This document shows, piece by piece, positions 12,630 to 41,504 of a stretch of 41,640 nt of DNA (position 1 is its first letter; every line of letters begins with the position of its first letter). The translations under genes were made by a program, and so were the position numbers. The notes beneath the pieces were generated by a model. The model was not told the DNA's origin and made no database searches. It saw nothing but the letters and a program-made list of their open reading frames with translations. Source of the stretch: a virus. Where the stretch lies: positions 1 through 41,640 of the IMG/VR virus record IMGVR_UViG_3300027906_000048. The stretch is one strand, 5' to 3'.

Positions 12630-12649
12630 CTTGTATGCTGACTATTATC

Positions 12650-12838: not shown

Positions 12839-13029
12839 AATTTTGATGTAATTTTTTTAAGCATTTCCTTTATCTCGGAAATTTCATTTTTCATTGAATC
12901 AAGCTCTGCTTTTTGCATTGCTTTCTGTGCTTTCTGCTGCTGATAAGCAGCATAACCAGAGCTATCATGGTTGATGATAGCTCCTGTCTCATCTCTATAG
13001 AGATGTGGTTTACCTTCCACTTGCATCAT
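12835..13029 (-). CDS. Small coiled-coil protein
   Basis: 64 aa, no named family recognised. The N-terminal half (KPHLYRDETGAIINHDSSGY) looks like a short beta-hairpin motif. The C-terminal half (KAELDSMKNEISEIKEMLKK) has heptad spacing of a coiled coil. The first ATG at 13029 overlaps the stop of the 2436-aa gene (ATGA), and the 3' end overlaps the next small gene in the same way. It is therefore expressed with the DUF4815-type protein and may be its assembly partner. Confidence 0.75.
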   Translation of the reverse strand: MMQVEGKPHLYRDETGAIINHDSSGYAAYQQQKAQKAMQKAELDSMKNEISEIKEMLKKITSKL

Positions 13030-21952: not shown

Positions 21953-21960
21953 TATTTATA
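21953..21960 (-). promoter_or_regulatory. Late promoter core TATAAATA upstream of gp8
   Basis: The minus strand reads exactly TATAAATA, the T4 late core recognised by the gp55/gp33 system. It overlaps the stop codon of the gp7-type gene and lies 35 nt before the gp8 start, an ideal distance for a short leader. It allows gp8 and the downstream virion genes to be made without transcribing the 16-kb gp7 gene. Confidence 0.7.
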
Positions 21961-24900: not shown

Positions 24901-27900
24901 GATCTGATGTATCAGGAGAACTCATACCATTAGTTCTAAAGGTATTAGTCGTTACATTAGAAACCTGAATCCACTTACCACTATAAGGATCGGTTGTTCT
25001 AGGATATGCATGTACTGTACTATAGTCATCCTTAGCACATGTGAAGGAAACTGCACCAGTATCAAATAGAACCCAATCACCATTACTAAGACCGTGATTA
25101 GCAGATCTAACTGTCATGATACCAACAGTACCATCATATTGCGTACCAGCTTCAGCAGTTAACCCTTCATGCGGTACAAAATGATGAGTTGAAATATTTG
25201 TGGACGGTTGTGACGCTAAAACTTGGAACGAAATTGAATTTGCGCTCGTAGAAGCGATAGAAACCGCAGTTGTAAACCCAGGATCGCTAGATCTTGGATA
25301 ATTATGCACACTCTGATAAGTATCAAAACCACACCTAAATGACATCGATTCAGGTGAAATTTGGATAGATTGACCAGTCATGAAACTATGGTCACCGATA
25401 GTAGCTGTTACAATGCCAGCAGTGGGGTCGTAGATCGCCGAGGAGATGCTATAAGGTGCTATAGGTGACTTACCTACTTCAACACTAAATGAGGTGGTTG
25501 TAATGCCTGTAATAGGTAACCACTTACCACTGACAGGATCAGATGATCTTGGATATGTCTTGGTTGAAGTGCCGCCATCCATGTCACACTTGAAGGAAAT
25601 AGAGTCATTATCGAATCTAATCCAATCTCCATCGTGAATTAAACGCCCACCAGGTACAACTGTAACGGTCATAATGCCCGCATTGGCATCATAAACTGCG
25701 CCATTTACAGTCTGAGTATCGATTGTATTGCGTGGATATGCGTGAGAAGAAATATAACTATCGTTAGCACAACGGAAGATAAGTGATCCAGTCGCTAACT
25801 TGATCGCAGTTTGTTCTGCTAATCCATGTTGACCAATATTAAGATCAAGGAATCCCGTTGTAGGTGTATAAGTTGCAGTAGTAACACTGTAGTTAACTGT
25901 AGGTGATGTACCAACAGTAATAGCAATACCTGTAGCTGTAGTAGATGCAACTGAAATTGCAGTGTCATAATAAGGATCAGATGGTCTAGGATAAGACTTA
26001 GTTTGACTAGTTCCATCCATAGCACACTTAAAGTCAAGTGAACTACCCTTAATTTTGATGGTGTTACCTGCCATAATGTTATGGTTAGGTATAGTCATCG
26101 TCATGATACCTGCTACAGGATCATAAACCGCATTAGTAGGTGTCCAACCAACATTAGTAGTAATACCAACGAATACATCGAAAGTATCATTAGTAACATT
26201 CCTTACTTCAAGGAACTTATCATTTACAGGGTCAGATGCTCTTGGGTATGTGTGATTAGTTGCATAACCATCCTGATTACATGTGAATGTTAATCCACCT
26301 GTTGTAATACCAATCAAGTTAGGATCGGTAAAGTTATGATTACCATCAGCAATAACAGTGGCAATACCACTTGTATAATCATAAACAAAGGATGTAATAC
26401 CAATAGTGCTTCCGTATCCAAGACCAGATTTACCAACATTAACAGTGATTGTATCTGAAGTAGTCTTACCAAATGCTACAATCTTATTATGATATGGATC
26501 TGTTACACGAGGATAAGCATGATTTGTTGCATATCCATCTTTATCACAACTCATAGTAATTGCACCAGTAGCAATTCCAATTAGACCCTTCTGTGCTAGA
26601 ACTCTAGCAACACCAGTAGATCCTATAGAGAGTGTTAAGTCACCAGTTAGTGAATTATATGCTGCATCACTAAGAGAGACATAACTGATAGTAGAAACAC
26701 CAACATGGAAATAAAGTTCACCAACACCAATAGAAGCAATACCAATCTGTCTATTATTAACAGGATCTCCTGTACCAGACTTACCAACAAACATTGTGGC
26801 AGTAGTAGCAGTAGTCGATGCAACCGCTATATTTGTACCATAGAACGGATCAGTGGTGCGTGGATATGAGTGCTGACTGTTATGACCATCTAGATCACAA
26901 GTAAAGACTAGTGAATCTTGAGCAATCTGAACAGTATTAGTACCAGCAACTAAAGCATGTGATGGGAATGTAAGTGTTAGATCACCAGTAGTTTCGTTGT
27001 AAGAAGCGTCTGTAGGTGTTAAAGCAGTACCAACATTAGGTGTAACTGCGCCAGCAGCAGCATTTACAAACTTATGACTGTATCCTGCACGAGGATATGT
27101 GTGAGTAGTAGCGTAGTTATCTCTCTCACAAGACATGCTGAAGGAGTTAGTTTGAATACCAATTGTGCTAACTGCCTTTCTAAGTGGTGAATTTGCACCA
27201 ACATAGGTATGAACACCAGCAGTTGCGTCATTAGCCTTACCAACATTCACTCTAAATGTGTTTACACCAACCTGATCAATTGTTAACCAACGGTTTGCAA
27301 TACGATCTTTACCACTAACACTGTTTCTTGGATAGGTGTGTTGAGTACCATGAGAGTCTTTAGCACATGTAAAGATCAGAGCATTTTCAGGAATCTGAAT
27401 AAATTCACCATTTTGGAATCCATGTCCAGTAATAGTGAAGTCTATCTGTCCTAATGTTGGATCATATGTACAAGTTGTAATTGCATGAGATGATGCTGTA
27501 GTAAATCCAGCAGTACTAACCGCTACCTTCATTTCACCTTTTAATGCATCATATGCAAGACTAGTAGGTGCATGAACAACTCTAGTTGAAATACCAACAT
27601 TAAGAGTGAATGCTGTATTTGAAGTCTTAGTTATTGCAGTAGTAACACCTGAAATTGGGTCAGATGAACGAGGATAACTATGAGGAGTTTGATAATTGTC
27701 TCTCTCACAAGTTAATGTTACCGCACCAGCATCTAATGTAATGGTATCATTAGTAGACATACCATGAGCAGATGCAAATTCTAATGTTAATACACCAGTA
27801 CCAGCGTTATATGCTGCGTTATTAGGAGTCTTCTGATTACCAGACTCTGCACCACTCTGTACATTAACACCATTGGTTAGTGCAGATACAAACTTATGAG

Positions 27901-30900
27901 GATAATCACCACCAGTGAATATGGCATCTGTAGTAACACCAACATGCTTATGAGTGTAATTTCCGCCCAATACTAGAGCATCAGTAACAGAACTTCTGTA
28001 AATGTGCTTATAACCAATACACTCCATTTGGAGTCCATTTAAGTAAACACTTTCAGATAATTCAAGATTATGAGGTCCAACTGTGCTGACCTCCATAATT
28101 CCACTTTCATTGTCATAGTATGCAGTTTCAATAGCTACACGAGTTCCTTCTGTAGGGAATCCAACAAGATCTGTAATGACACCATAAGCATCACGAACAG
28201 GTCTTACATTAGCACCTCTAAATGGTGCATATCCTCTACCTGGTGTAGAAGCAACAGATATTATGATGCCACCCCTAGGTAACTGATTTTCATTAATATC
28301 CGTTACATCAATTATCGGCGTTTCATATCCTATAGAACTAATACCAGTGAATTGTACACTAGCAATACCAGCACTAGGATTATCTAAAATCTTGAAATTA
28401 GAATTAGTATTATTCTCACTATATGGTGCTTGGAAGATATTATTGATGAATAGTACACCATTACCACCAGTTGAACCAATACCAGTAACTGCAACACCAA
28501 TAGATGTTAATGGGTAAGTAGTTTCTAATCCGTCAAACTGTTCTGATATATCATCAAAGATTTGGTTCTTGGAATAATCCTTCCTTAGGAATGCTCTTCC
28601 ACCAAATGTTGCTCTTGCATATGGCAAGTTAGCAGCATTAGTAATTCCTAAGTCACCACCAAGAGGTGCTTTTGTGAAATGTACCTGACTATCTAAGATC
28701 TGGAATGATCCTCTAAAGAGTCTAGCAGTCTCACCAGCAGCATGTGAAGTAGCAGCAGTACCAACTGCGCCCCTCTCTACCTCTACTAATGTCCATGTAC
28801 CAATACCCACAACTGGTCCAATAGTAGTTGTACCAAAACCAACAGTTCTTACAATAGAATATTCATCTTCAATCTTGAGTAAATCTCCAGATTGGACAGA
28901 TGAAATACCACTTAATACAAATGCAGTTACATAACCAACAACAGGAACATTTAAATCATATTCGATTGAAGTGTATGATATTGGTTTTTGAACTAGACCA
29001 CTAATGGAAATCATAGATTTCTCATCTCTCTTTCTCATAGAGAATCTATGCTTATTACCAGTACCAGTACCATCAAGGAATGTTACAGCAGCCCCTACCT
29101 TAGCATCATTTTCTGTTAATGCAATTCTATACTGTTGATTGTTGTCCTTAATAGCATAAACTGTTGATGGTAAATATCCAGTTACACCAGCACCAGTTCT
29201 GTATATAAGAGCAGATCCACCAATACCAATAAGGTTAGAATCGGGAGTATATGTTAACTGCTCATAATTAGAGAAGAAGTGCTTCTGATTAAACATACCA
29301 GATGCACGATTTATTTGATTAGCATCTGCAATATTTGTTTCACGAGCATAAATTGGGATGCCTAAGTAATTTAAATCAAATGATTTGATATTTCTGTTAT
29401 TGATACCAAGATAAATTGTTTGTGCAACATTCTCATACACTGAACCATAATTAATATCACCAATACCGTCTCTAGTACCATTAGGGTCTAAAACCTTGTA
29501 TAGTACTTCATTATATGCAGTGACACTAACAATACCAGCAACTGATGGGTGGAACTCTAGTCCATAAGTACCATCGGATCTATAAGTAGAACCAAATGTT
29601 CCTATACCAGTTGTAGATCCAACTGATGCAAGTGGAGTTTCACTAATAAATGTTTGACTCTTCTCAGGATCAGATAACATGTAAATCTGATGTAAAGACT
29701 GAGTTGCGCCATAAGAAACATGAACTGTAGACTTAACAGTTAAATCTGTAAGACTTGTTATACCAACAATAGTTGTAATACCTGCTCTTGATTGACTTGA
29801 AGTTTCAAGTCTTGCAGATCTTTCTGTACCATCTGGAGTGAATGGAATCTTAAATCTATAATTAGAATCCCCAAGAGTAGATGGATCAACTATAATTGAC
29901 TTATACTTAACAGTTACATTATTTGAACGACCATTCTCAAAGTCAAACTTAACTAAACCACCTTCAATCTTAGATGTTACTGTACCAATAAACTGTGGTG
30001 CAGATAATCCACTTAGATTCTGTTTTGAGTTAAATGCTGCTAATTCTGTCAAATAAGTATCAACACCATCATGCATAATTGCATATTCTAGATAATCTAC
30101 CTGTTTTTCTAAATTTGTTCCAGGATTATCAATTGCTAAAAGTTGTACAATAGCAGCTTGACTGGATGAAGTAGATATTCCAAAAATATTAGTTGTTACT
30201 GAACCTGTGATAGTACTTCCTGCACCAGCAGTTGCTACACCACCTTCTAACCTAATATGACCAAAAGCAGAACTTCCACTACCTACAGAATCAGAGAAAT
30301 TAGTCTGGAATGACTTAACTTCATAATCAGTATCAAATGGTTCATTGGGACGGAAAAGTAGTTCAGTTATATCTGTACCAGCATTATATCTGGTATCAAA
30401 GGTTGCATATCCAGTACTAAGACCAGCTACTTGGTTCCAGTTCTGCATTTCTTGCTTTTGGAGCAAGAAAGTATCTTCATCAACAGTAACTGAGATGAAT
30501 TCGTTAAATTGGTAATGGTTCTTAGCAGGATCTTCTGCCTGATGGACACTTTGAGTTAACCATCTCTGGAAGTATCTTCCACCAGGATAAGTCGCAACAA
30601 CTCGATAATCACTTAAATCATTAGACTCATTTGAGACAAATTTAGGACTAATATCATCAATATTCAAAACTCGGTTAGTTCTGTTTAAAATGAAGTCAGA
30701 AAGTCTAGTTGCTCTTAATTCTACAAATTTAGAGATATTTCCTTGGGATTCAAAATCTCTTGCTAAATCAAACGGATAAATTGAATCTACTCTAAGTGGA
30801 TCGCCAATAAAGTCAAGAACCAGTCCACCAGCATCTTCTGCAGGTATATTTGTTTCGCCTGGCTTACCTGATGCCATAACTTCCGTATTGGCAAAGTTTT

Positions 30901-33900
30901 TAAGTCCAGATGGGTGAACTATATCATTAACATAGGTAACTAAGTCCTCATAAGTCTTAGGACTCTCAATTGCATAAGAAAGGTTCTGATAATAATCATT
31001 ATCAGGTAATACTTGGTTAGTGTCATTAATAAGTCCAACATTGTCTCTCCAACCAACTAAGGTCTTAACAGAAGACGCAATATTAAAACTACCATCAAAT
31101 TCCTTGATACCAATAACTCTACAAGAAGATCCGCTTAATTTACCAGTTAAGATATCATTAATTTCAAGTGGCTCTGCACCACTAACGATAATCTTAGCAG
31201 CATTAGAATCAATGAAGTCTAAAGCAACATCTGCAATAGGATTGTTATTTCTCTTAAATGGTTCATTTTCAATGAACTTAGAAGCACCTTTAACAACTTC
31301 AAATTGTGCAATGAAGGCTGCTTGGGTTAATTGACCAAATCCAAAGGAAACTGTTGCTCCAGTACCAGGATTTGTAGAAATTCCATTTAAATCGAATGTA
31401 ACTTCTCTTGGGTTGGTAGCATCATTATAATCAGTAACTTCAAATGGAATAAACTTATAATCTTGAGAGTTATATCCAGTACCACTTCCAGCGTCATAAG
31501 CAACACCTTCAACCATTAATTTATCACCAATTGCTATTGGTTCAGTAACATATCCTAAAACTGGAGTAGTAATAGTACAAGTTAAAATTCCAGCAGCGGC
31601 TTGTACATTAATAATGCTAATACCGTTACTATTTCTTACAGGAGCAACTCCATAGTCATTATTAGACAATCCAATAGGAGGTACAGAGACTGTTGCCTCA
31701 GTTACAGCAGAGTCACTTAATTCGCAAGTAATTAGTCCAGTTTCTACAACATCACCAGTTGCTTTATCGTATAATACTAATGCAGGTGCAGTAATATAGA
31801 ATTTACCGCCATATATGACATTAACCGCATCAATGGTAGAGAAACTGTCTATATTAACAACTCTAGGAACAAAAGCATCAGGTCTGAGAGTATTATCGGA
31901 TGGATATCCATAAACATCTTCTGGAACCGTTAATGACTGTAATTTGTTGATAGCATCAGATTCTGCAATCAATGTTGCGTTTTCTCCACGATCTCCAATA
32001 CTAGAAATACCAGGAAGTCTTGAATAGTTAAGTCCTGGACTTAATATTCTTGTTGAAGCAATACCACCAGTAGCATTAGTAGATCTAGTAGTATATTCAA
32101 TAATATCGCAATTAGCAGCAGTATAATTTAAAGATTCTGGTTTTTCCTCTAGATTGATATTAAATGTAGTATTTCCAATACTTGTTATTGGATATGTTGA
32201 TGTGTAAGAACTATCAACATACTTAATTTGAGATCCATTGAAAACAGTCTTATCAGCAGTACTAATACCACTTGAAAATAGACTATAGTAGATTATCTTA
32301 GGAGCTGTCTCAGAATGTCTAATTTTAATGGTTGGATGACCATCAGAATTAGGATTTGTTGATGCAACACCAACAGTTGCTGTAGTATGAACACCAACTA
32401 TCTCAAAACCAAGACTTGTGCCAGATCCTACAAATTCATTAAAGTAATTATTGTCATAATAGAATTTTAAGTCATTCCCAGATAAAGTGGGATCACTCAT
32501 ATCAAATACAAGATCATTATTCCTAAATGGTCTTAATTGTGGATTAATTGGGTTAATAGTTTGTCCAGATCCACCTTGAGATGTAATATTAACAACATTT
32601 GGAGTTCCTGAAGCTTCTTTAAATGTATTTGTTAATTGAATCGTATTTTCGTCAATTACAACAACATAATACTCTCTTTGAACTATTCCATCTGGAAGAT
32701 TTGAACCATAATACAAGATTTTATCACCAGTTATCAAATTATGCTTATAAACACTAATTCTGTTAGTAGTAGTGTTTATTCCAGTTTGGTCAATATTAAG
32801 TGGATTGAGAATCAGATAATTATCAATAATCTTAACTGTTGCAAAGGTTGTTGTACCAATACCAGTTGCAAGACCAGGTTTAACAATCAAATTGATCTCA
32901 TCATCAGTTTCTAACTCATGATTCTCAGCAGTTTGGATGGTAGTAGTGATTTTTTGTACAGATCCAGTAACTTGTGTATCTGGAGTGTGAGTAAACAGAT
33001 AATCATAAGCATCTGTACCACCAGTAACAAAATACACTTCATTAGAAGTTTTGGTTGTTTTTATACCAATAGTGTTTTCAGTTTTTCTTACCGCATAGCA
33101 TGGATCAGGTATATTGAAGGTAGTTCCAACACTATCAGTTTTTAAACCTAAAGTAGCTCCACCACTAGGAACAGTCAGACTTAAAGCATCATTAGTCTTT
33201 AACCCATGATTTTCTAAGTGAATATTCTGAGTTTTAATAGATCTAGTTGCAGTAACACCAAGATATTCAAAATCTCTAGTTATTGTTTGTCCTGTTGTAG
33301 TACCAAATCCTACTGCTTCTGTAGGGTTAAAATATATCTTTTTAGTTTGTTCAGAAATAAATTTATTGGTAACTATAGGAATCTCTATTTCATCAGCAAA
33401 GTATGAAACTCCCAATCCAACTACACCTGTAGTTGTAACACCAGTAGACCTACGAATTCTTAATACACTATCATCATTATAAACATTCAAAATATGAGCA
33501 GTTTCTTGCCCAATTTGAACAGTAGTAGCAATTCCTACTGTAGAACCAGTAGAAACAGAAAGTGGAGTCTGAGTAGAGAATCCAATTGTAGCACCAGCAG
33601 CGACTGAGACTGGAATATACTGAACTCTAATATCAGTAACTAATCCAACAACATCATTCTCTAAAAGTTTGGTTGAAACATTTACAGTGCTAATAACATG
33701 AGAATCTACTAATTTGTCTATACTAGTAGATAATCCAGCAACTTGTACATAATCTTTTACTTCTAACCCGTGTGATGGATCAAAATGACCAATAACACTT
33801 TGATCTTTCCATTCAAATACTATATTTTCGTATAATTTAAATGTAGTATCAATCTTATTAACAGTCTTACCTTTTAATAGATTAACTTTAGCGGCAACAC

Positions 33901-36900
33901 CAGATCCACCAGTTCCACTTTCATCAAAGTTTAATTGCGCTCCAAAAGTGTATCCTATACCAGAAGATGATATCTGTAAACGCTCTACTCCACCAATACC
34001 GATTTTATCTGGTATTGCGACATTAGGAATCTGCTTATATGGTTGATATACAAAATCATAAGCAACTCCATCACCAAATAGGTTATATGGAAGGGTATTT
34101 CGTACTAATTTGGATTCTTCAAAACTATAATTAAGTTGCTTAATCTTTTCACCAGAAACTGTATTAACTCTTAGTGGGAATCCTCTATAAGTATCACCAA
34201 TATAATATGGGAATACTGGAACATCAGTATTATCTACCGTTGCGAAATATGCATAAACACCTTCTTCAAATTCAGGTGTTTTACAGAATCTACCATTATG
34301 TTCATCTAAATCACCACTAGAATCATAATAATAATCTTCAACAAAGAAACCTGCTTCATATTCTGAAAGGGAAGGTCTATTTAAAATTCTAGTTGAATCT
34401 AACTTATAAGATGATATCATCCTCGTAGAAGAAGACTGAATATCATCAATATTAGTCAAACCATAAGGTCCATAAATTGGATTTCCATCATATGCCCATC
34501 CAATAATGGGTGAGTGTCCAGTTCCATCATCATTAAAGGCATCTTTAACTGTTGCACCATAAGCAACAGATTCAATAGCTAATCCACCGTCAACTGGAGT
34601 AAGATAGTCTCCATTCAGTGTACCACTGGTTTTATACTTATTAGCAACTAATGGTCTAACTCTAGTTGAGAATGTTGCAGAATCACCTGGAGGTTTAATA
34701 GAAACATTGGTTGTTGTTGCAGCATATCCAACACCTTGAGACAAAACTACAATTGAAGATATCTCCCTACCATCCATAACAGCACGAAGTTTCGCACCAG
34801 TTGCGCTACCAACACCAATTACTTCTAAATCTGGAGGTCCATCATAATCAGATCCTTTACTTTGTACAAAAGCATCAATAATTCTTCCATTAACAATGGT
34901 TAATCCAATTTGACCAAATGCTCCATAATTAACATCTACAGCAGGTGCTTTTTCAAAGTTAATGATATTTGAACCATAATCACGACCCTTATCAAATAAA
35001 ATAGCTTCTGTAACTTTACCACGAACAATAGGAGTTGATTTTAAAGTTACTGGTGTATCAGAATCAGTAATAACATTAACATCAACGGTTACAGGAGGAT
35101 ATGAGAAATCTTGATATCCAACTCCATGAGAAGTGAATCTTACATATTCTTTATTCAGATAATTTGTCTTATCTGGAGTTCTTGTGGTTGCAATACCTGA
35201 ATAGCAAAGTCTAAACTTGTCCTCATCAAGAGATATGATTTGATATTGTGAATTAGTTGATAATCCAGTAATAGCTGTTGCACCAACAGTAGTTGATATG
35301 CCATAATGAACCACTTCCCCATCTTTAAATCCATGATTAGGGAATTCAATAAAGTCTCTAAAAGTACTGACTCCAGTAGGTTCTATAGAAAGTCTCTTAT
35401 TAGTATATCCACTACCACCATCTAGGATACTAACTCTAGAAATGCGCCTCTTTGTATCATAATCTCTAAGTTGATGAATACCATTATTAAGGTATGCTGC
35501 TGTTGAACCAAAACCTATAGTGTTTACACCAGCAATTGCATCTGATTTTTGTGTATAAAGCTTGAATATTGTATCACTATGAATACCAACATAGTAAGAT
35601 TGACCTTCTACTAAAGAAGTATCAATACCAGCTGCTGCTTGTGTATGAATACCAACTACATTATTATTATTTGCACTATAAAGTACTCTATCCCCAGTTT
35701 TATAATAATGGGGTTTATCCATTATAAATCGACCACTATTAGGGTCAGCATGATCAATATTACCTCCATTATAGAAAGACTTAGCATTGAAGGTAAATTG
35801 TCTATATGCTAACTCTGTAATTGCTTGAGCAACTGCCCCACCACCATTTCCACCGTGTATATCAACAGAAACTACTTTTTTGATCTCAAAATCAACAGGA
35901 TCAATTAAAACATCAGTAACAGTACCACCAATAGCTAATCTACCAAATGCAGTATTAACTCCAGTAGAACTATTCTCTATACTGATAGCAGGTGGATTAA
36001 GAACATCATATCCAGTACCAGCATTAACAAGATCAAGTGCTTTTAAAGGTCCATAGTAAATATACCTGTCGGACTTATAATTGGTGATTTCTACACCATT
36101 TACCAACATTCCAGTATTACCATCTAAGGTTCTTTCAGAAGTTGTCTTTTGTAGTTTACCTTTAGTTAAATTTTGATCAAGAATGAACCTTTTAAGTGTT
36201 CTACCTGGGAAAATTGATTTTCTTGCTTGCTCAACTCTAATAAAGTCATGAGTTCCAGTTGTTACATCTGGAGGAGCAAATTTTATGGAAATACCAGATG
36301 GAATAAAGGATCTGGAAGGATATAACTTAATTTTGTTATCTTGTGATAATACTTCTACAAAATAAGAGTTAGCATCTAATCCACCAATAGCAACAGTATT
36401 TCCAATTGGAACATAAGCAATTTCTTCACCTGTTCTAAAAGGAACGCTCTGTGGGAAAGAAATTATGGTATATCTGTTAGATAGACTGTCATATCCACCC
36501 CATGAACCACCAGATACTGTAGGATTCTCTAAAACAGCATGAACTTTATCACTAGTGATCGGATATGAAGGAATAGAGTTAGAAGCTACAAATCCTTCTT
36601 TTTCACCACTCTCTGACCACTTATTATCAAGAACATAGGTGTTAGAAACATCAGATAAGATTTGAGACTGTCCACCAACGATAGGAACGATGGTACTGGT
36701 CGCTTTTTCTTGAAGTCTTCTTATATCGTAGTCAATTCCAGCAGTGGCGGTATAAGCACCCGATACACTAATAGAATTATTAACATTATTGATATAAGTA
36801 ACCGTTAATGGTGATGCAGCAACTGTTTCAGTGTTTCTGACCAACATTTCGATCTTATCACCGACCCTTAGACTTGCTTTATCAATATCACCCTTTAAAG

Positions 36901-38317
36901 TAAAGGTAGCACCAGATAAATCTTCAACTAGATACCTACCACTAGTATTATAGACCCAAGAGTTGAAAAATACCTGTTCAAAGGTCTTTTCTACTTGTGG
37001 GTTACTAACATATCTTCCAAGGTTCTTAACATTGACCTTAGAAGTCTCAGAAAGTCCATATAAGTCTTGAAGAGGGTCAAAATCACTTAAAACACCCGTT
37101 ATTTTCATAGTAACAGGTTTTTCAAGATTATTATCCTCATAACCATACACTATAGTTGGTGTATAGATGTTTTTAGTGGATTTAATATCTTTTGATGTTG
37201 TAGTTACACCAATAAACTGGTTTACAGTCTTTTCAGTGTATTCTAGTCTCATAAAGTCAGTCTCTGTAGAGACACCAACCTCAATAGTACCAGTTTGTCC
37301 AAATCCAATGGTAGAATCAACAGTTATAACCGTTGCACCCAATCCAACACTACCAACTGCTTGAGTTCGCCCTGGAACAACAAAACTACCTTGAATTAGG
37401 TCTCTATCATCATATCCAATGAACACCGAAAGACGATAGAAGTCATCTCTGATCTGAACAACCTCAGAAATAGGTCCACTAGCAGCATTTACTAAAGGAT
37501 TACCTACTTCATTATCTTGAAACAGAGTTTGTCCAATAAGCTTGTTAGGATCACCAGTAACTACCTGTACAGCAAAAGATTCCCTTCTCAGATAGTTTGC
37601 ATAAGATGGTTTAATTAGATATTTCTCAAGATCATTGATTTTTGGTTCTAAACCAAATAATGCTTTAAATAGAATCTTGAAAGATTCGTTAGTACCCTTA
37701 GATTCGTATAAACTTCTTGCTTCCTTTACAAAATTATTGATATCTAGTTCTGGACTTAACTTTACACCTTCCAATCCAGGTGTATACTGCGCTTTTAACT
37801 TATCATAAAACTCTTGAAGGAATAATGAACTTAAATTCTGAATTTGGGATCCAGTATCGTGTTCTGCGGCAAGAGTTTCAGTCCAACTTAAATTTTTATA
37901 GTCATCAATTGAGTGATATGTAGTAATTCCACTAAAACCTCTTATACAACCAGTAAAAGTGTTTGTAGTAACTCCAGTATATGTTATAATCTCATTATCA
38001 ATCTTTAAAAGACCCCATTCTTGAGGAAATCCCTTAGTACTAGTAGAAACAGTGATTTCATCACTATCTGTAGTAATACTAGACGCTAATGATACATTAC
38101 CAGATATAACATCCTTGGTTAAATTGTCAATTTTAATATATTTGTCAATATTCTCTCCAATATCAACAGGGCCACCTTGATATTCTTGGGAAATATAGTA
38201 CTGTTTTAAAAACCCCTCGAAAAGTGGATTTTCCGCAATAGAGAATTCTGGTGCTTGATCACCAACGACTTGATATGTCTTAACTCTGGAGGATAAGGGG
38301 CTATGAGTTTCTATCAT
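21956..38317 (-). CDS. 7: Giant gp7-type baseplate wedge protein
   Basis: 5453 aa uninterrupted; T4 gp7 is 1032 aa. In T4, gp7 initiates wedge assembly. Residues ~145-330 match the C-terminal core of T4 gp7: LQEFYDKL, EARSLYESKGTNESFKILFK (T4 ARFFESRSYDFYSTKGIEASYKFLFK), LIGQTLF (T4 LVGQTIY). The rest is modular. It includes GxGY units, HG(L/F)xxGD beta units, a YHYH-like domain at ~1270-1385, and a mixed region at ~2490-3300. The YPR repeats occupy ~3490-4600 among GGxYxHxF motifs, and a C-terminal domain around 5030-5140 carries LLIFVNGVLQEPNKHY. The ATG at 38317 directly abuts AAAAAAGG, an unusually short SD spacing, but no better nearby start is seen. Its place between gp6 and gp8 supports the gp7 call. 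The added modules probably form outward-facing arms; that is inference. Confidence 0.88.
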   Translation of the reverse strand: MIETHSPLSSRVKTYQVVGDQAPEFSIAENPLFEGFLKQYYISQEYQGGPVDIGENIDKYIKIDNLTKDVISGNVSLASSITTDSDEITVSTSTKGFPQEWGLLKIDNEIITYTGVTTNTFTGCIRGFSGITTYHSIDDYKNLSWTETLAAEHDTGSQIQNLSSLFLQEFYDKLKAQYTPGLEGVKLSPELDINNFVKEARSLYESKGTNESFKILFKALFGLEPKINDLEKYLIKPSYANYLRRESFAVQVVTGDPNKLIGQTLFQDNEVGNPLVNAASGPISEVVQIRDDFYRLSVFIGYDDRDLIQGSFVVPGRTQAVGSVGLGATVITVDSTIGFGQTGTIEVGVSTETDFMRLEYTEKTVNQFIGVTTTSKDIKSTKNIYTPTIVYGYEDNNLEKPVTMKITGVLSDFDPLQDLYGLSETSKVNVKNLGRYVSNPQVEKTFEQVFFNSWVYNTSGRYLVEDLSGATFTLKGDIDKASLRVGDKIEMLVRNTETVAASPLTVTYINNVNNSISVSGAYTATAGIDYDIRRLQEKATSTIVPIVGGQSQILSDVSNTYVLDNKWSESGEKEGFVASNSIPSYPITSDKVHAVLENPTVSGGSWGGYDSLSNRYTIISFPQSVPFRTGEEIAYVPIGNTVAIGGLDANSYFVEVLSQDNKIKLYPSRSFIPSGISIKFAPPDVTTGTHDFIRVEQARKSIFPGRTLKRFILDQNLTKGKLQKTTSERTLDGNTGMLVNGVEITNYKSDRYIYYGPLKALDLVNAGTGYDVLNPPAISIENSSTGVNTAFGRLAIGGTVTDVLIDPVDFEIKKVVSVDIHGGNGGGAVAQAITELAYRQFTFNAKSFYNGGNIDHADPNSGRFIMDKPHYYKTGDRVLYSANNNNVVGIHTQAAAGIDTSLVEGQSYYVGIHSDTIFKLYTQKSDAIAGVNTIGFGSTAAYLNNGIHQLRDYDTKRRISRVSILDGGSGYTNKRLSIEPTGVSTFRDFIEFPNHGFKDGEVVHYGISTTVGATAITGLSTNSQYQIISLDEDKFRLCYSGIATTRTPDKTNYLNKEYVRFTSHGVGYQDFSYPPVTVDVNVITDSDTPVTLKSTPIVRGKVTEAILFDKGRDYGSNIINFEKAPAVDVNYGAFGQIGLTIVNGRIIDAFVQSKGSDYDGPPDLEVIGVGSATGAKLRAVMDGREISSIVVLSQGVGYAATTTNVSIKPPGDSATFSTRVRPLVANKYKTSGTLNGDYLTPVDGGLAIESVAYGATVKDAFNDDGTGHSPIIGWAYDGNPIYGPYGLTNIDDIQSSSTRMISSYKLDSTRILNRPSLSEYEAGFFVEDYYYDSSGDLDEHNGRFCKTPEFEEGVYAYFATVDNTDVPVFPYYIGDTYRGFPLRVNTVSGEKIKQLNYSFEESKLVRNTLPYNLFGDGVAYDFVYQPYKQIPNVAIPDKIGIGGVERLQISSSGIGYTFGAQLNFDESGTGGSGVAAKVNLLKGKTVNKIDTTFKLYENIVFEWKDQSVIGHFDPSHGLEVKDYVQVAGLSTSIDKLVDSHVISTVNVSTKLLENDVVGLVTDIRVQYIPVSVAAGATIGFSTQTPLSVSTGSTVGIATTVQIGQETAHILNVYNDDSVLRIRRSTGVTTTGVVGLGVSYFADEIEIPIVTNKFISEQTKKIYFNPTEAVGFGTTTGQTITRDFEYLGVTATRSIKTQNIHLENHGLKTNDALSLTVPSGGATLGLKTDSVGTTFNIPDPCYAVRKTENTIGIKTTKTSNEVYFVTGGTDAYDYLFTHTPDTQVTGSVQKITTTIQTAENHELETDDEINLIVKPGLATGIGTTTFATVKIIDNYLILNPLNIDQTGINTTTNRISVYKHNLITGDKILYYGSNLPDGIVQREYYVVVIDENTIQLTNTFKEASGTPNVVNITSQGGSGQTINPINPQLRPFRNNDLVFDMSDPTLSGNDLKFYYDNNYFNEFVGSGTSLGFEIVGVHTTATVGVASTNPNSDGHPTIKIRHSETAPKIIYYSLFSSGISTADKTVFNGSQIKYVDSSYTSTYPITSIGNTTFNINLEEKPESLNYTAANCDIIEYTTRSTNATGGIASTRILSPGLNYSRLPGISSIGDRGENATLIAESDAINKLQSLTVPEDVYGYPSDNTLRPDAFVPRVVNIDSFSTIDAVNVIYGGKFYITAPALVLYDKATGDVVETGLITCELSDSAVTEATVSVPPIGLSNNDYGVAPVRNSNGISIINVQAAAGILTCTITTPVLGYVTEPIAIGDKLMVEGVAYDAGSGTGYNSQDYKFIPFEVTDYNDATNPREVTFDLNGISTNPGTGATVSFGFGQLTQAAFIAQFEVVKGASKFIENEPFKRNNNPIADVALDFIDSNAAKIIVSGAEPLEINDILTGKLSGSSCRVIGIKEFDGSFNIASSVKTLVGWRDNVGLINDTNQVLPDNDYYQNLSYAIESPKTYEDLVTYVNDIVHPSGLKNFANTEVMASGKPGETNIPAEDAGGLVLDFIGDPLRVDSIYPFDLARDFESQGNISKFVELRATRLSDFILNRTNRVLNIDDISPKFVSNESNDLSDYRVVATYPGGRYFQRWLTQSVHQAEDPAKNHYQFNEFISVTVDEDTFLLQKQEMQNWNQVAGLSTGYATFDTRYNAGTDITELLFRPNEPFDTDYEVKSFQTNFSDSVGSGSSAFGHIRLEGGVATAGAGSTITGSVTTNIFGISTSSSQAAIVQLLAIDNPGTNLEKQVDYLEYAIMHDGVDTYLTELAAFNSKQNLSGLSAPQFIGTVTSKIEGGLVKFDFENGRSNNVTVKYKSIIVDPSTLGDSNYRFKIPFTPDGTERSARLETSSQSRAGITTIVGITSLTDLTVKSTVHVSYGATQSLHQIYMLSDPEKSQTFISETPLASVGSTTGIGTFGSTYRSDGTYGLEFHPSVAGIVSVTAYNEVLYKVLDPNGTRDGIGDINYGSVYENVAQTIYLGINNRNIKSFDLNYLGIPIYARETNIADANQINRASGMFNQKHFFSNYEQLTYTPDSNLIGIGGSALIYRTGAGVTGYLPSTVYAIKDNNQQYRIALTENDAKVGAAVTFLDGTGTGNKHRFSMRKRDEKSMISISGLVQKPISYTSIEYDLNVPVVGYVTAFVLSGISSVQSGDLLKIEDEYSIVRTVGFGTTTIGPVVGIGTWTLVEVERGAVGTAATSHAAGETARLFRGSFQILDSQVHFTKAPLGGDLGITNAANLPYARATFGGRAFLRKDYSKNQIFDDISEQFDGLETTYPLTSIGVAVTGIGSTGGNGVLFINNIFQAPYSENNTNSNFKILDNPSAGIASVQFTGISSIGYETPIIDVTDINENQLPRGGIIISVASTPGRGYAPFRGANVRPVRDAYGVITDLVGFPTEGTRVAIETAYYDNESGIMEVSTVGPHNLELSESVYLNGLQMECIGYKHIYRSSVTDALVLGGNYTHKHVGVTTDAIFTGGDYPHKFVSALTNGVNVQSGAESGNQKTPNNAAYNAGTGVLTLEFASAHGMSTNDTITLDAGAVTLTCERDNYQTPHSYPRSSDPISGVTTAITKTSNTAFTLNVGISTRVVHAPTSLAYDALKGEMKVAVSTAGFTTASSHAITTCTYDPTLGQIDFTITGHGFQNGEFIQIPENALIFTCAKDSHGTQHTYPRNSVSGKDRIANRWLTIDQVGVNTFRVNVGKANDATAGVHTYVGANSPLRKAVSTIGIQTNSFSMSCERDNYATTHTYPRAGYSHKFVNAAAGAVTPNVGTALTPTDASYNETTGDLTLTFPSHALVAGTNTVQIAQDSLVFTCDLDGHNSQHSYPRTTDPFYGTNIAVASTTATTATMFVGKSGTGDPVNNRQIGIASIGVGELYFHVGVSTISYVSLSDAAYNSLTGDLTLSIGSTGVARVLAQKGLIGIATGAITMSCDKDGYATNHAYPRVTDPYHNKIVAFGKTTSDTITVNVGKSGLGYGSTIGITSFVYDYTSGIATVIADGNHNFTDPNLIGITTGGLTFTCNQDGYATNHTYPRASDPVNDKFLEVRNVTNDTFDVFVGITTNVGWTPTNAVYDPVAGIMTMTIPNHNIMAGNTIKIKGSSLDFKCAMDGTSQTKSYPRPSDPYYDTAISVASTTATGIAITVGTSPTVNYSVTTATYTPTTGFLDLNIGQHGLAEQTAIKLATGSLIFRCANDSYISSHAYPRNTIDTQTVNGAVYDANAGIMTVTVVPGGRLIHDGDWIRFDNDSISFKCDMDGGTSTKTYPRSSDPVSGKWLPITGITTTSFSVEVGKSPIAPYSISSAIYDPTAGIVTATIGDHSFMTGQSIQISPESMSFRCGFDTYQSVHNYPRSSDPGFTTAVSIASTSANSISFQVLASQPSTNISTHHFVPHEGLTAEAGTQYDGTVGIMTVRSANHGLSNGDWVLFDTGAVSFTCAKDDYSTVHAYPRTTDPYSGKWIQVSNVTTNTFRTNGMSSPDTSDHIFASGVTGAIKRSQIHGGGAYGHTFQAAGVGSMDQKRDRAFDQPIGIHSVGSTSVTATDAVYDPSAGIMTVTVAGHGFMNNDRVKFDDNSISLKCARDSYRIAHTYPRSSDPISGKWVSIASTTVNTFAVDVGASGPAHQFAHTFDSATTGGIKKQTGYITLQVGVSTDTSVHNYDIGAGHEATNAVVSGGNYAHTFQSATTGAVQYGGAYDHQFVSAASSTLYIDSWSGAALTPTNATYNPATGILQFTAANHGLVKPENFKLAGIGVTCQYGAKTYPSGVQGYYYTVRSVGTTTSFTTFVGVSTLVHPYTGGGTVRVGLTTNIYPDYDQQLDVTGIVSARTFSVNAGISTIPHSYHSGGTASIYYCELTYGSGYTTDLGTITAIGVTDPGNSPYGIGATVTAIVGAGGSLVFNLVNGGTGYSKNTVINVPQPSGDLLSIEGNYREGLGNTTTTGVGASITVDIIGISTNYVGYSTGPEFLLNEVAEWNLAKPGYGFKKGDKFGVTGLSTDPDAGDLFIPFEIEVTDIFNDDISAWQFGNLDYIDNIRPFQDGDRKRYPLYYQNQLISFEIDNNDPDSREIDLGPVLLIFVNGVLQEPNKHYTFNGGTSVNFETAPTINDDVFIFFYRGTVGDDSIFFDVNEIIKEGDSVELFKSSDIELNQVPKNNTNFAQQGARIVTRIATASVVETPFYQGSGVNNDNYKPMRWNKQKVDRVFAGGIVSKARDSQEAQIYPIANVIKSYTDTDTALFVDHNLNFRDVDGLLDDDFGIFVYGVGIGTTAQAGVNWEYWNDIDPLVTDVQGYTGLITGITTSAGIGTDLGLVFQLDTNNLVNEENSSFVTGFTTGYPFRVYGSGISPAAGVITSVDAHDSDPIGISTFELDNIYYAHSVSWDGSARTGVITCNIHSGTNITGLVGVGSTAHPAARFSWGRFSSAIRDVFDPLSLTAKGLDYDPDLDKWPIAQRRNIGLRNTGALGKTL
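24520..27860 (-). repeat. Twelve YPR-type protein repeats in the gp7-type gene
   Basis: Each unit encodes about 60-140 residues. Typically there is a strand-rich lead (AxYDPxxGIMTVTxxxH), then HGFxxGDxIxF and SxSFxCxxDxxxxxHxYPRxSD, then an alternating-strand tail (TxxTFxVxVGxS). YPR codons fall near 27669, 27331, 27090, 26857, 26510, 26242, 25986, 25733, 25550, 25292, 25000 and 24575. A degenerate TYPSG copy lies near 24061. The unit at 27090 is cut short and unit lengths vary from about 183 to 425 bp, so these are diverged protein repeats, not a clean DNA array. Confidence 0.9.
34170..34515 (-). other. YHYH-like domain within the gp7-type gene
   Basis: The encoded residues ~1270-1385 read IIGWAYDGNPIYGPYGLTN, later LDEHNGRFCKTPEFEEGVYA, YFATVDNTDVPVFPYYIGDT and YRGFP. 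This order (YDGxPIYGPYG, LDxxNGRxxxTPE, GxYxYxxT, FPYxIG, RG) is the signature of YHYH-domain proteins. The naming YHYH tetrad is replaced by YAYF. Confidence 0.7.
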
Positions 38318-38323
38318 CCTTTT

Positions 38324-40243
38324 TTATGACCGAGTGAAGGTTCCGTTAGAGTAACTAGAGGTAACTTTATATCCGATTCCAGATATTTGTTGTCCAGAAG
38401 AAATAGTGTCTCTCACGATATTTATCGTACTATTAGACATGTCTAATTGTAGGAATAAATCCTTCAATCCAATAATATCATTTGATTCTGGATATGCTTG
38501 AACTTCTATTATGCCAGATGCACGAGAAGTTCCTGTAATATTGATAGTATTGATCATAATTTCACCTTTTACATAATCAACAGTTCCTGCAGAAGGTAAA
38601 ACAACTGGTGGATCTTCATCTGACTGTTCACTTAACTGAATTACAGCAATATCACCTGTTTTTAGGTCGTCATGAGGTAAATCTGTAAGATAAACAGTAG
38701 TGCTAGACCCAGAAATGGTAAATCCAGTACTTTTTATGTTTTTACCCTTTGGATTTACATGAAATGCGTTACCAAAGCACAATTCATACTGAGTTGAGGC
38801 ATTAAAAACTGGTTTTAAGTCTCTTCGTATGGTTAATCGTGTAATATTTGATGTAATTGCATTATTTGTGTCATCAACGATTTTTTGAGACTCAGAGTAT
38901 TTAAATCTACCACCAAATGCATTCAAATTAGTAGATTGACCATAATTTGTTAAAGCTGCAACGACTTGAGACTTTAATCCATCAATATCACTATAAACGG
39001 TTGAATCATAGTAGACAGAACTGTCAAGTTCGATGTAAAGAACCTTAAGATCAACAATTCTTTGGTTAATTCCAGCAATAGAATAACTTTTTAATCTATC
39101 TAAAATCTGTACCTTAGTAAAGTCAGACAAATAGGTAGAATTTCGAGGTTTTACACTTAATATAACAGTACCAAACTCAGGTGGATCTAATTCTTCACCA
39201 CCAATAACAGAAACAGACTCTGCATCAGGGAAAACACTCTGTATAATACCTTCGTAATCCTTTGCTGTAACCGCCCTGTACTGTGAGGAGTAAACTCTAG
39301 GTGCAATATACCTAATTGAGTCTATAGACTCTATATCGCCTCCTCCCTTAGCAGTCTGGACGGTGTTTATAGTTGGAGTTATAGAAGAAGAAAGAGGATT
39401 TCCAGCATCATCTACTGCATCTGCACTAAATGAGAAGAATTTTCCATCATTTCCATCTTTCCCATCAGTGATAATGTAAGTAACTTCAATAGTATCTCCA
39501 TGACTCAACTTTTTACCAAATAATCCATCACCAAACATCAATTCATACTTCTCATCCTTGATTTCTTGAATAAGATAGATGTTTGACTTCTCATTAATAT
39601 TTGTAATATTGTCAATTCTCGAATATTCTAGTCCAGAACTAGATCCAGACTTCCTTACAAACACTCTAATTGATGCAGTATCAATAAATGGGTTATCTAA
39701 AACGAATCTTTGGTCTAAACTAGCATTTACAGTGAAATATTTTCTTAAAAGTGTACCTTGGTATATGGTAATATCTCTAAATTGAGCAGTTCTTGGTGGA
39801 TTTACTAAAATACCGCTTCCTTCGTCTATTGGACTGCTAACAGTAATGTCTTCTGGGATAGAAAATGTAAAAGAAGTGTTGTTTTTTGCTCCAACTGCAA
39901 CTAATCCTTTCCTTAATTTAACAGTATTACTATTTCCGTTGAATTTAAAGTCAAAATTTATGATTGCTGATGCAGATTTACGAGATCTTGGTACATATCC
40001 TATATTTCTTGCTAATGAAACTACATTTTCTCTTAAAGTTGCTGAATCCAAGAAGGATTCGTTGACAACCATGTTGCTATTGAACGCTGTAATGTAGGTA
40101 TTGTATGCCAATATATCGATTAATATCGACATATTTGAACCTTCAAAGTCAAAATCAGTAAAATCTGAGTTTGCTCTTAAATAAGAACGAATTTGACCTT
40201 TAATTTGGTCAAAATCAAGGTTAGTAAACTTGGTTACGGGCAT
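38324..40243 (-). CDS. 6: Baseplate wedge subunit gp6
   Basis: 639 aa, close to T4 gp6 (660 aa). gp6 dimers form the inner iris of the baseplate and link neighbouring wedges. The N-terminus (FTNLDFDQIKGQIRSYLRAN, FDFEGSNMSILIDILAYNTY, FNSNMVVNESFLDSATLREN, SLARNIGYVPRSRKSA) is strongly gp6/baseplate-J-like. The middle contains YELMFGDGLFGKKLSHGDTIEVTYI and AVTAKDYEGIIQSVFPDAESV, both typical of the family. The last ~150 residues carry a beta-rich end (STTVYLTDLPHDD, GTVDYVKGEIMINTINI). It starts 5 nt after gp25, with AGG near the start, and ends 6 nt before gp7. No insertion is seen, so it is an ordinary core component beside the greatly enlarged gp7. Confidence 0.93.
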   Translation of the reverse strand: MPVTKFTNLDFDQIKGQIRSYLRANSDFTDFDFEGSNMSILIDILAYNTYITAFNSNMVVNESFLDSATLRENVVSLARNIGYVPRSRKSASAIINFDFKFNGNSNTVKLRKGLVAVGAKNNTSFTFSIPEDITVSSPIDEGSGILVNPPRTAQFRDITIYQGTLLRKYFTVNASLDQRFVLDNPFIDTASIRVFVRKSGSSSGLEYSRIDNITNINEKSNIYLIQEIKDEKYELMFGDGLFGKKLSHGDTIEVTYIITDGKDGNDGKFFSFSADAVDDAGNPLSSSITPTINTVQTAKGGGDIESIDSIRYIAPRVYSSQYRAVTAKDYEGIIQSVFPDAESVSVIGGEELDPPEFGTVILSVKPRNSTYLSDFTKVQILDRLKSYSIAGINQRIVDLKVLYIELDSSVYYDSTVYSDIDGLKSQVVAALTNYGQSTNLNAFGGRFKYSESQKIVDDTNNAITSNITRLTIRRDLKPVFNASTQYELCFGNAFHVNPKGKNIKSTGFTISGSSTTVYLTDLPHDDLKTGDIAVIQLSEQSDEDPPVVLPSAGTVDYVKGEIMINTINITGTSRASGIIEVQAYPESNDIIGLKDLFLQLDMSNSTINIVRDTISSGQQISGIGYKVTSSYSNGTFTRS

Positions 40244-40248
40244 TTCTT

Positions 40249-40641
40249 TTACCTAGTCGCCTCTAAAAGGAAATTAAATGATTGTAAGGAGTAACTTTGA
40301 CCTACAATTTCATATTGAACAGTTAGTTCAAACTCATTATCATCAGGTTTTGGGTCTGCAGTTACAATTATACCGTCAATTCGTGGTTCATATGTTGCTA
40401 AAAGACTTTTTACTTCCCTTGCAATGACACCACCAGTAGCTACATCGCAAAATCCAAATAAAAGATCACTAACATCTGACCCTAGATCATTATAAAATCG
40501 CTCTTTAGTCTTAGTTTGCACCAGATTTCTTACGGAGCGCATTATAGCCCTCTCGTTTTTCAAGACATTTAAGTCTCCAGTTACAGGATTTGGTTGAAAA
40601 TCGAGGGTAATGTCCTTATATCCTCTGGATTTTTTCGCCAT
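40249..40641 (-). CDS. 25: Baseplate wedge protein gp25, lysozyme-fold GPW family
   Basis: 130 aa against 132 in T4. gp25 binds gp6 and helps nucleate sheath assembly at the baseplate centre. The family signature is clear: LKNERAIMRSVRNLVQTKTK, ERFYNDLGSDVSDLLFGFCD and the C-terminal EFELTVQYEIVGQ. The start ATG at 40641 lies inside a short hairpin and lacks a clear SD. A TATAAATA late promoter octamer lies 28-35 nt upstream. It begins the wedge transcript gp25-gp6-gp7. Confidence 0.93.
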   Translation of the reverse strand: MAKKSRGYKDITLDFQPNPVTGDLNVLKNERAIMRSVRNLVQTKTKERFYNDLGSDVSDLLFGFCDVATGGVIAREVKSLLATYEPRIDGIIVTADPKPDDNEFELTVQYEIVGQSYSLQSFNFLLEATR

Positions 40642-40668: not shown

Positions 40669-40676
40669 TATTTATA
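40669..40676 (-). promoter_or_regulatory. Late promoter core TATAAATA upstream of gp25
   Basis: The minus strand reads exactly TATAAATA in the ~45-nt gap between the DUF1257 stop and the gp25 start, 28 nt before the ATG. Sequence, location in the largest true intergenic gap and distance all fit a T4-type late promoter for the baseplate wedge operon. Confidence 0.72.
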
Positions 40677-40686
40677 CCGTGTTTTC

Positions 40687-41064
40687 TCAATTCCAACGGG
40701 TGACTGTTAATTCTATACTATTATCATCCATCTCCCACTCCTCTGCAACCTGCCAACCTTCTTCTTTTACCTTATTATGGATAGTCATTCTTGCATATTG
40801 TTGTCTAACTTTCTCAATAAATCTTTCTGGAGGAAATGGTTGACTCCAAGTTTCTAAATCAGCAACTAACTCATATTCCTGTCCATTCCAACGAAATCCA
40901 ATTTCATTGTTAATAGAAATATCCACCTGCCATTTTTTATGATCATGGTCAAGTGGATTTTCTAACTCTACATTTTCCACTACATTATATTGTAGTAGTT
41001 CTAATGCTTCAAGTAAAGCAGGTTTTTTTGTAATCTGAGTCTTTATCGTACTGAAGTGTGACAT
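40687..41064 (-). CDS. ycf35-like: DUF1257 / Ycf35-like protein
   Basis: 125 aa from the preferred start. It resembles cyanobacterial and algal-plastid Ycf35 (DUF1257): MSHFSTIKTQI at the start, then an EALELLQY helix, INNEIGFRWNGQEYELVADL, QQYARMTIHNKVKEEGWQVA and the final SIELTVTRWN. I start it at the ATG at 41064. This ATG shares a base with the upstream stop (TAATG), has AGAAGG 6 nt upstream and gives the family's usual MSHF start; the TTG at 41070 would add two residues with no SD space. DUF2997 directly upstream is a common partner. The biochemical function is unknown to me. Confidence 0.85.
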   Translation of the reverse strand: MSHFSTIKTQITKKPALLEALELLQYNVVENVELENPLDHDHKKWQVDISINNEIGFRWNGQEYELVADLETWSQPFPPERFIEKVRQQYARMTIHNKVKEEGWQVAEEWEMDDNSIELTVTRWN

Positions 41065-41282
41065 TAGCAACCTTCTGAATCATGCGTAAATTCTTCAACA
41101 TATCCTTGGAAATCTAATTCCTGATAAAAAGAAGGAAGATACTCCCTATTCATTACATTACCAAGTTCCTCTTCTACTCCTTCAGTTGCCTTTAAACATT
41201 GCTTACCAGTTGCACCGATAACCTCTTCGGTTACCATACCATCTTGTCTAATAGTGTACTTAACCGTTTCCTGTTTGGACAT
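41064..41282 (-). CDS. DUF2997-like protein
   Basis: 72 aa. The N-terminal KYTIRQDGMVTEEVIGATGK and CLKATEGVEEELGNV match the DUF2997 pattern (strand, DGxVxExVxGxxGxxC, then a helix with the ExxLG motif). The C-terminal LPSFYQELDFQGYVEEF is less typical. It is followed by DUF1257 with a TAATG overlap, reproducing an arrangement known from cyanobacteria. No SD is evident at its own start. It is a small cytosolic protein, probably a partner of the DUF1257 product; the process served is not known. Confidence 0.78.
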   Translation of the reverse strand: MSKQETVKYTIRQDGMVTEEVIGATGKQCLKATEGVEEELGNVMNREYLPSFYQELDFQGYVEEFTHDSEGC

Positions 41283-41303: not shown

Positions 41304-41504
41304 TTATTTAGTCTCTTCGATTGCCTCTTTAATAACAGTCTTCAACTGTCTTAACTTTTTCTTACCTAATCCTGCCCTTGTATCGATTTTTACCTTTAAC
41401 CAGTATACAAACGCAAGTACTAGTATAAACTGAATCCCTTCACCCCATGAAAGATTCCATGCTTCATTGAGATCGAGACTCGCCGCCGCTAGGAGGTTAA
41501 TCAT
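41304..41504 (-). CDS. Small single-helix membrane protein
   Basis: 66 aa, unrecognised. A short N-terminal part (MINLLAAASLDLNEAWNLSW) is followed by a hydrophobic segment (about residues 25-42, IQFILVLAFVYWLKVKI). The tail is strongly basic, then mixed (GLGKKKLRQLKTVIKEAIEE), and is likely a cytoplasmic helix. The ATG overlaps the stop of the preceding basic protein (ATGA). Topology and size resemble phage accessory membrane proteins such as a spanin partner or antiholin, but nothing specific identifies it. Confidence 0.7.
   Translation of the reverse strand: MINLLAAASLDLNEAWNLSWGEGIQFILVLAFVYWLKVKIDTRAGLGKKKLRQLKTVIKEAIEETK

Follow-up and report, generated by a model that had tools for sequence, protein, structure and literature searches.

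Two small genes, one of the family DUF2997 and one of the family DUF1257 (Ycf35), lie directly upstream of the baseplate genes gp25 and gp6 in the DNA analysed here, a virus record of 41,640 bases whose tail, neck and baseplate genes are of the T4 type (hereafter, the window). Genes for Ycf35 occur widely among cyanobacteria and in the plastids of algae. Where such a pair comes from, whether it belongs with the baseplate genes that follow it, and what it may do in the infected cell are the questions addressed below. The accessible text of the literature mentions a suspected role of Ycf35 in photosynthesis and the presence of DUF2997 in some viruses (PMC13131479), and in that same accessible text no tested function of, or experiment on, Ycf35 or DUF2997 themselves was found. 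Searches of the literature for Ycf35 together with cyanophage, or for DUF1257 together with phage, returned nothing. The analysis shows that this is a real, conserved and host-derived phage gene pair.

The gene pair in the window

The profile search rejected neither DUF1257 nor DUF2997. Both scored well above the Pfam cut-offs (Table 1), and the existence of the pair next to gp25 and gp6, which a sequence-only reading of the window had proposed, was thereby confirmed. The stop codon of the DUF2997 gene and the start codon of the DUF1257 gene share a single nucleotide (TAATG). The ATG at position 41064 is the best start for DUF1257; a mechanical list of open reading frames (ORFs) begins the gene at a TTG at 41070 instead.

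Table 1 Features of the DUF2997-DUF1257 locus and its surroundings in the window
Feature	Position	Strand	Evidence and remarks
gp6	38324-40243		Downstream of gp25; Pfam and phrog searches
gp25-like baseplate wedge gene	40249-40641	-	Neighbour outside the cassette; Pfam GPW_gp25, 34.2 bits; phrog_261
TATAAATA, consensus late promoter of gp25	40669-40676	-	Starts 11 nt past the DUF1257 stop
DUF1257/Ycf35 gene, 125 aa from ATG	40687-41064	-	Pfam PF06868, 79.9 bits (cut-off 22.2), E 1.9e-22, profile 2-103 of 103; phrog_20456; model pLDDT 89.5
Phage-specific loop N36-P-L-D-H40-D-H42 of DUF1257 (ATG numbering)	40939-40959	-	Alignment of 67 phage and 106 cellular sequences
DUF2997 gene, 72 aa	41064-41282	-	Pfam PF11211, 60 bits (cut-off 24.1), E 2.1e-16, profile 1-47 of 47; phrog_23133; model pLDDT 77.1
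ACTAAATA, one mismatch to NATAAATA	41305-41312	-	CTAAATA part starts 29 nt before the DUF2997 ATG

For DUF2997 a β-hairpin and a helix were predicted, with Cys29, which is invariant in an alignment of 31 sequences, at the start of the helix. Neither the DUF1257 nor the DUF2997 model gave a Foldseek match at E ≤ 0.001, and a search of PDB sequences with the phage profile produced only matches of E ≥ 0.16. The best VIA-align score for DUF1257 (Z of 6.7 over 81 residues) falls in the range that the tool calls common and, therefore, no fold family is claimed for this protein.

Directly upstream of the pair (41304-41504, minus strand) lies a gene for a 66-residue protein of phrog_9048, a family of unknown function, the N-terminal half of which looks hydrophobic by eye. 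Members of this family were seen in 36 of the 83 phage loci described below, several of which have two copies ahead of the pair. The tail region of the window is occupied by a single ORF of 5453 codons (21956-38317, minus strand), and the C-terminal end of its product (21956-25000) resembles families of baseplate wedge and tail fibre proteins.

Distribution and conservation of the pair in phages

A relative of DUF1257 was encoded in 315 of 325 candidate stretches from IMG/VR. The best 80 of these 315 were fetched and examined, and together with the window, P-SSM2 and P-SSM7 they make up 83 loci, or 84 entries when the window's own copy in that set is counted as well. In 79 of the 84 entries a DUF2997 gene was located directly upstream of DUF1257, on the same strand and overlapping it; in the remaining five the contig ends 1 to 73 bases before the DUF1257 ORF. 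The two genes stay together in every locus that permits a judgement, which is more than chance. Both are under purifying selection, with a median dN/dS among the phage copies of 0.111 for DUF1257 (591 pairs, none above 1) and 0.384 for DUF2997 (1071 pairs, four above 1), and it is highly probable that the pair constitutes a functional unit.

In a collection of 50,697 phage records, DUF1257 was present in 15, and the same 15 contained DUF2997: three records of P-SSM2, one of P-SSM5, two of P-SSM7 and nine single-cell marine virus contigs. The cyanophage survey that the sequence-only reading had called for thus turned up both genes in named phages and in marine virus contigs alike. P-SSM2 and P-SSM7 (T4-GC 174/175 in these two) and P-SSM5 have the same pair in the same order as the window, annotated as hypothetical only; the DUF1257 protein of the window is 58 % identical to those of P-SSM2 and P-SSM5 and 47 % to that of P-SSM7. 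A gp6 resembling that of the window (E ≤ 1e-60) was found in 482 phage records, by name 372 of Synechococcus, 61 of Cyanophage and 24 of Prochlorococcus, which is an overall tally and is not paired record by record with the carriers of DUF1257 and DUF2997. Among named isolates, then, the pair was found only in Prochlorococcus phages.

The surroundings of the pair vary. When the 83 loci were sorted from locus maps, in which several gene names were assigned by eye, 45 had gp25 and gp6 as neighbours, 17 nrdB/talC, six a gp17 terminase group, five gp19-uvsW and three sugar-nucleotide genes. Rarer neighbours were of the purM type (two loci and P-SSM2), neck-like (two loci) and hli/psbA (P-SSM7), while one locus was left undefined. 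Among the named phages, the pair of P-SSM2 is located between nol and gp43 and that of P-SSM7 between hli and psbA. With 45 loci beside gp25 and 38 elsewhere, the pair behaves as a cassette. In the nrdB/talC class (L045-L082), DUF2997 extends at least 47 nt into DUF1257; its terminal stretch (NVTLQHNQ...) looks like the start of DUF1257 in another reading frame.

Origin of the pair

In cyanobacteria the two genes are part of the operon DUF2997-ycf35-fed7, listed as cluster g, with ssl1263, ycf35 and fed7/sll0662 as its members in Synechocystis (PMC4284462). DUF2997 was found upstream of ycf35 on the same strand in all 74 canonical host loci, and an ORF for a ferredoxin with the CxxCxxC..CP pattern was found downstream in 73 of these, the exception being L148. 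DUF1257 was not seen in every genome: it was present in 148 of 291 genomes of a phylum sample and in 21 of 26 from a genus of 31-33 % GC, where the five genomes lacking a match measured 1.0-1.4 Mb.

A tree of DUF1257 was made from 75 rows (14 phage representatives and 61 cellular sequences). As it has only 129 columns, many inner forks are left open. The phage rows formed one clade (100/100) and grouped with 20 rows from small-genome cyanobacteria (100/92), both values coming from a bootstrap that had not fully settled; the Ycf35s of the remaining cyanobacteria fell outside this group, as did the AAA-linked type discussed below. Long end branches, P-SSM7 among them, occur in the tree. When five rows that were long or odd had been taken out, the phage clade was recovered at 100/100 and its grouping with the small-genome hosts at 99/91, again with a bootstrap not fully settled. 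The small-genome hosts by themselves were held together at 92/83 in the 75-row tree and at 58/73 after the removal, and the phages may be placed either beside or inside them. The stem branch of the phages is long, 1.24 changes per column, from which it follows that the capture is old or that fast change came afterwards.

DUF2997, whose length does not suffice for a tree, was assessed by profile comparison alone. All 77 phage DUF2997 sequences scored higher with a fed7-type profile than with a profile of other cellular sequences (built from 74 and 12 sequences, respectively), as did all 67 phage DUF1257 sequences with the corresponding DUF1257 profiles. The nearest host copies are approximately 42-46 % identical to the phage proteins.

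A third line of evidence is the overlap between the two genes, which was seen in 34 of the 35 loci from small-genome hosts (-1 in 18 and -14 in 16) and in none of 39 other cyanobacterial loci, a group in which L163, from a genome of 3.0 Mb and placed among other cyanobacteria, was counted. All 77 phage loci that could be measured have it (-1 in 38, -14 in six and longer in 33); six of the 83 were not measurable. The 35 small-genome loci derive from genomes of about 1.1-2.9 Mb, with a GC content of 0.31-0.33 in 16 and of 0.37-0.67 in 19. On the basis of genome size and GC these hosts are probably picocyanobacterial, and the values suggest Prochlorococcus, marine Synechococcus and their kin.

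Tree, profile fit and shared overlap agree, and there is very little doubt that the phage pair was derived from a host. The sequence-only reading was right in considering both genes to be of cyanobacterial type, in that the phage DUF1257 proteins group with the Ycf35s of the fed7 operon and both proteins fit the fed7-type profiles better, and in regarding their order and overlap as host-like. A phylogeny placing the genes outside the cyanobacterial families had been named as the outcome that would overturn it; the tree, made for DUF1257, does not place the phage proteins there.

Absence of fed7 and replacement of a conserved loop

The phage pair is like the host operon in gene order, in the families encoded, in the stop/start overlap of the small-genome hosts and in its place in the tree, and differs from it in two respects. 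First, fed7 is missing. In the window the pair is followed by gp25, not by fed7; no Fed7-like ORF was detected at E ≤ 10 in the 83 phage loci, which outside the window reach at most some 5-8 kb from the pair, and no Fed7 was detected at E ≤ 1 in the 50,697 phage records. Phage PetF, reported in four of 16 cyanophages including P-SSM2 and P-SSM7 (PMC3037559), was considered as a specific partner, as its gene lies near the pair in P-SSM7, and was rejected because 279 phage records contain petF-like genes, compared with 15 that contain the pair. psbA, hli and petF are likewise host-type genes carried by cyanophages, but for these genes roles have been named.

Second, a loop of DUF1257 has been replaced. 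The comparison was made in the same alignment columns for 67 distinct phage and 106 distinct cellular sequences, after identical sequences, fragments of fewer than 95 residues and 14 redundant loci had been set aside. A loop consisting of G, one of the residues YFWHLN, up to two further residues and G was found in 102 of the 106 cellular sequences (72/72 of the fed7 type and 30/34 of the others) and in none of the phage sequences. The stricter form [RK]GYxG was present in 71 of the 72 fed7-type sequences, in 19 of the 34 other cellular ones and, again, in no phage. Two histidines spaced one to four residues apart are instead found in all 67 phage sequences, 64 of which have the form HxH, and in none of the 106 cellular ones; in the window, NPLDHDH takes the place of the cellular RGYxG-type loop. 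Five positions (25, 37, 40, 79 and 115) are fixed differently in the two groups at the 85 % level. The scaffold (MSHF, GF56-57, D69, W73, Q88, YA90-91, G103 and D114) is kept in at least 97 % of the phage DUF1257 proteins. In the predicted structure the loop links the strands 30-37 and 46-53 (TTG numbering).

As neither the RGYxG-type loop nor fed7 was found, the pair is best filed as DUF1257/DUF2997 of Ycf35 descent rather than as a functional Ycf35. Given the altered loop, the host function might have been lost instead of retained. The replacement of the loop is new here. Neither it nor the separation from fed7 was part of the sequence-only reading, and both will be unexpected to the specialist.

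In Synechocystis, Fed7 is reported to be raised under low iron and high light and to have a DnaJ protein and FTRc as two-hybrid partners, and its loss to lower stress tolerance (PMC4284462). Expression of ssl1263, fed7 and ycf35 is reported to depend on SigD under standard conditions (PMC8875361), and the Ycf35 protein to increase under copper and iron deduction (PMC8141849). The dependence on SigD and the response of Fed7 to low iron and high light would suit a phage copy that simply adds to the host Ycf35-DUF2997 function in photoprotection or in iron and redox stress, as has been supposed for psbA and hli, and so would the retained scaffold and the position of the P-SSM7 pair between hli genes and psbA. 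Such a supplement is nevertheless rather unlikely, considering that the loop present in every fed7-type host sequence is replaced in every phage sequence, that the stem branch is long and that the phages lack Fed7. Alternatively, an altered phage Ycf35 could displace the host Ycf35 from its complex and thereby inactivate or redirect that complex, as might be read from a new and strongly constrained motif in place of a host-conserved loop and from the ferredoxin partner not being carried by the phages. A decoy of this kind would have no obvious need for DUF2997, yet DUF2997 is kept in every locus that can be judged, and we consider this explanation improbable.

A second cellular branch and a possible chaperone function

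The second branch of DUF1257-DUF2997 genes is often located near genes for an AAA+ ATPase, a GrpE-like protein and Hsp70. Its loci were hand-picked from the listed matches (17 cyanobacterial, among them two near-copies, and 12 from Armatimonadota), and the counts that follow are to be taken as examples. Among the 17 cyanobacterial loci, an AAA gene was within range in 13 and absent from it in four, and GrpE or Hsp70 was within range in 12 and absent from it in five; the latter genes are on the other strand in L165 and L177, and in L167 only a piece of 60 residues is present. The Armatimonadota loci contained AAA in three of 12 cases and GrpE with Hsp70 in one. The best NCBIfam and PDB matches of the AAA+ gene are to CDC48/p97, albeit below the NCBIfam cut-offs. 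The GrpE-like protein scored below the Pfam cut-off in L166 and is annotated as grpE in the Pseudanabaena plasmid, and the Hsp70 of this branch scored above its cut-off.

A complete operon in the order AAA+, DUF1257, DUF2997, GrpE-like and Hsp70-like was seen in five cyanobacterial loci and one from Armatimonadota (L166, L168, L170, L174, L184 and L196), with two extra genes in L174. It is possibly an undescribed chaperone machine. These operons have both families in common with the phage pair, usually close together, but they differ from it in their reverse gene order, their AAA+ and Hsp70 partners and their separate branch in the tree. A scan of genome contigs with the Pseudanabaena protein gave three loci and one with the query A1 gave no relative, nor did scans of viral contigs with the Treponema and Pseudanabaena proteins.

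The other link to chaperones runs through ferredoxin. The Fer domain of plant and algal DnaJ-Fer proteins is reported to derive from cyanobacteria, and the Chlamydomonas proteins to interact with Hsp70B and Cge1 (PMC3564930). Both branches touch Hsp70-type machines, and it is on this ground that an accessory role in a chaperone mechanism is proposed. The sequence-only reading had suggested an auxiliary metabolic pair that may affect photosynthetic or redox physiology; the genome context points to protein maintenance. The proposal has the neighbours of the other branch and the data on Fed7, rather than Ycf35, as its basis, and a mechanism of the chaperone type can be put forward only tentatively. 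Taken as a whole, the explanation that we favour, with reservations, is that of a captured pair acting as a chaperone accessory coupled to the Fed7 branch, with its loop retuned.

According to this explanation, an ancestral cyanophage would have acquired DUF2997 and ycf35, the two leading genes of a picocyanobacterial fed7 operon, in what was probably a single event, and the cassette would since have come to occupy many positions in T4-like cyanophages. The two small proteins together would form an accessory of an Hsp70/DnaJ-type chaperone branch, which in cyanobacteria would be coupled to the stress ferredoxin Fed7. In the infected cell the phage pair might join the host assembly of Ycf35, DUF2997, Fed7 and DnaJ or compete with it, the His-pair loop changing the partner or the metal bound, and client proteins (photosynthetic, iron-sulphur or phage proteins) would stay folded under redox stress as host synthesis stops. 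A more specific form, which remains doubtful, would have DUF1257-DUF2997 as an ancient AAA+/Hsp70 accessory in which a surface with two histidines, perhaps able to bind metal, has taken the place of the GYxG loop and turns the host Fed7-DnaJ-Hsp70 branch to the needs of the phage. By keeping Ycf35 and DUF2997 without the ferredoxin and with one loop rewritten, the phages offer a natural dissection of the operon, which suggests the two proteins that work as a unit and the surface at which mutations should be aimed. A testable biochemical role for both families is provided by the other branch, with its AAA+/GrpE/Hsp70 neighbourhoods.

The second-branch loci with no AAA or GrpE/Hsp70 gene in range, the low counts among Armatimonadota, the lack of a Foldseek match for either model, the changed loop and the absence of Fed7 from the phages weigh against the favoured explanation, and one cellular locus does not fit the chaperone reading. 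Plasmid pTRESU01 of Treponema succinifaciens (915-18060; L085/L185) encodes a DUF1257 protein (52.6 bits) beside Tail_P2_I, in a cluster of the contractile-injection type with gp25, baseplate J, sheath, baseplate V, PAAR and M23 peptidase genes. No annotated chaperone gene was present around DUF1257 in positions 1-26000 of this record.

Late promoters and the baseplate operon

The late promoter of cyanomyoviruses is reported to be NATAAATA (PMC2984593). This motif, with a background of 0.23 per kb, was found between the pair and gp25 in all 45 loci of the gp25 class, 29-35 nt before gp25; it stays attached to gp25 in the eight loci that have an extra ORF after the pair. A late-operon reading of the pair is weakened by gp25 having this late promoter of its own. 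Upstream of the pair, the sequence ACTAAATA of the window is a possible weak late promoter, judging from its likeness to the consensus. CTAAATA was found 29-30 nt upstream of DUF2997 in 34 of the 41 gp25-class loci with a readable upstream region. Of 48 distinct upstream stretches, which are related and not independent sequences, six have a perfect NATAAATA ahead of the pair, where shuffles lead one to expect 0.85; no perfect motif was found near the pair in the 17 loci of the nrdB class. Expression of the pair may thus be timed differently in different phages.

That the pair is a virion or baseplate assembly factor, expressed late and aiding gp25/gp6 wedge assembly, is very unlikely: the one-mismatch motif, the excess of perfect ones, the Treponema cluster and the position of the pair directly, or in eight of the 45 loci by one ORF, upstream of gp25 would agree with it, but the pair has other neighbours in 38 of the 83 loci, that of P-SSM2 is located at approximately 147.5-148 kb near gp43 with gp6 at 73-75 kb, gp25 has its own promoter, 482 records have a similar gp6 and only 15 the pair, and the phylogeny leads to the fed7 type. 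The specific tie to the baseplate operon that had been drawn from the window is, for the first and third of these reasons, not supported. The extra ORF between DUF1257 and gp25 (L010, L017-L022 and L072) encodes a protein of about 190 residues that resembles, by eye, a 2OG-Fe oxygenase.
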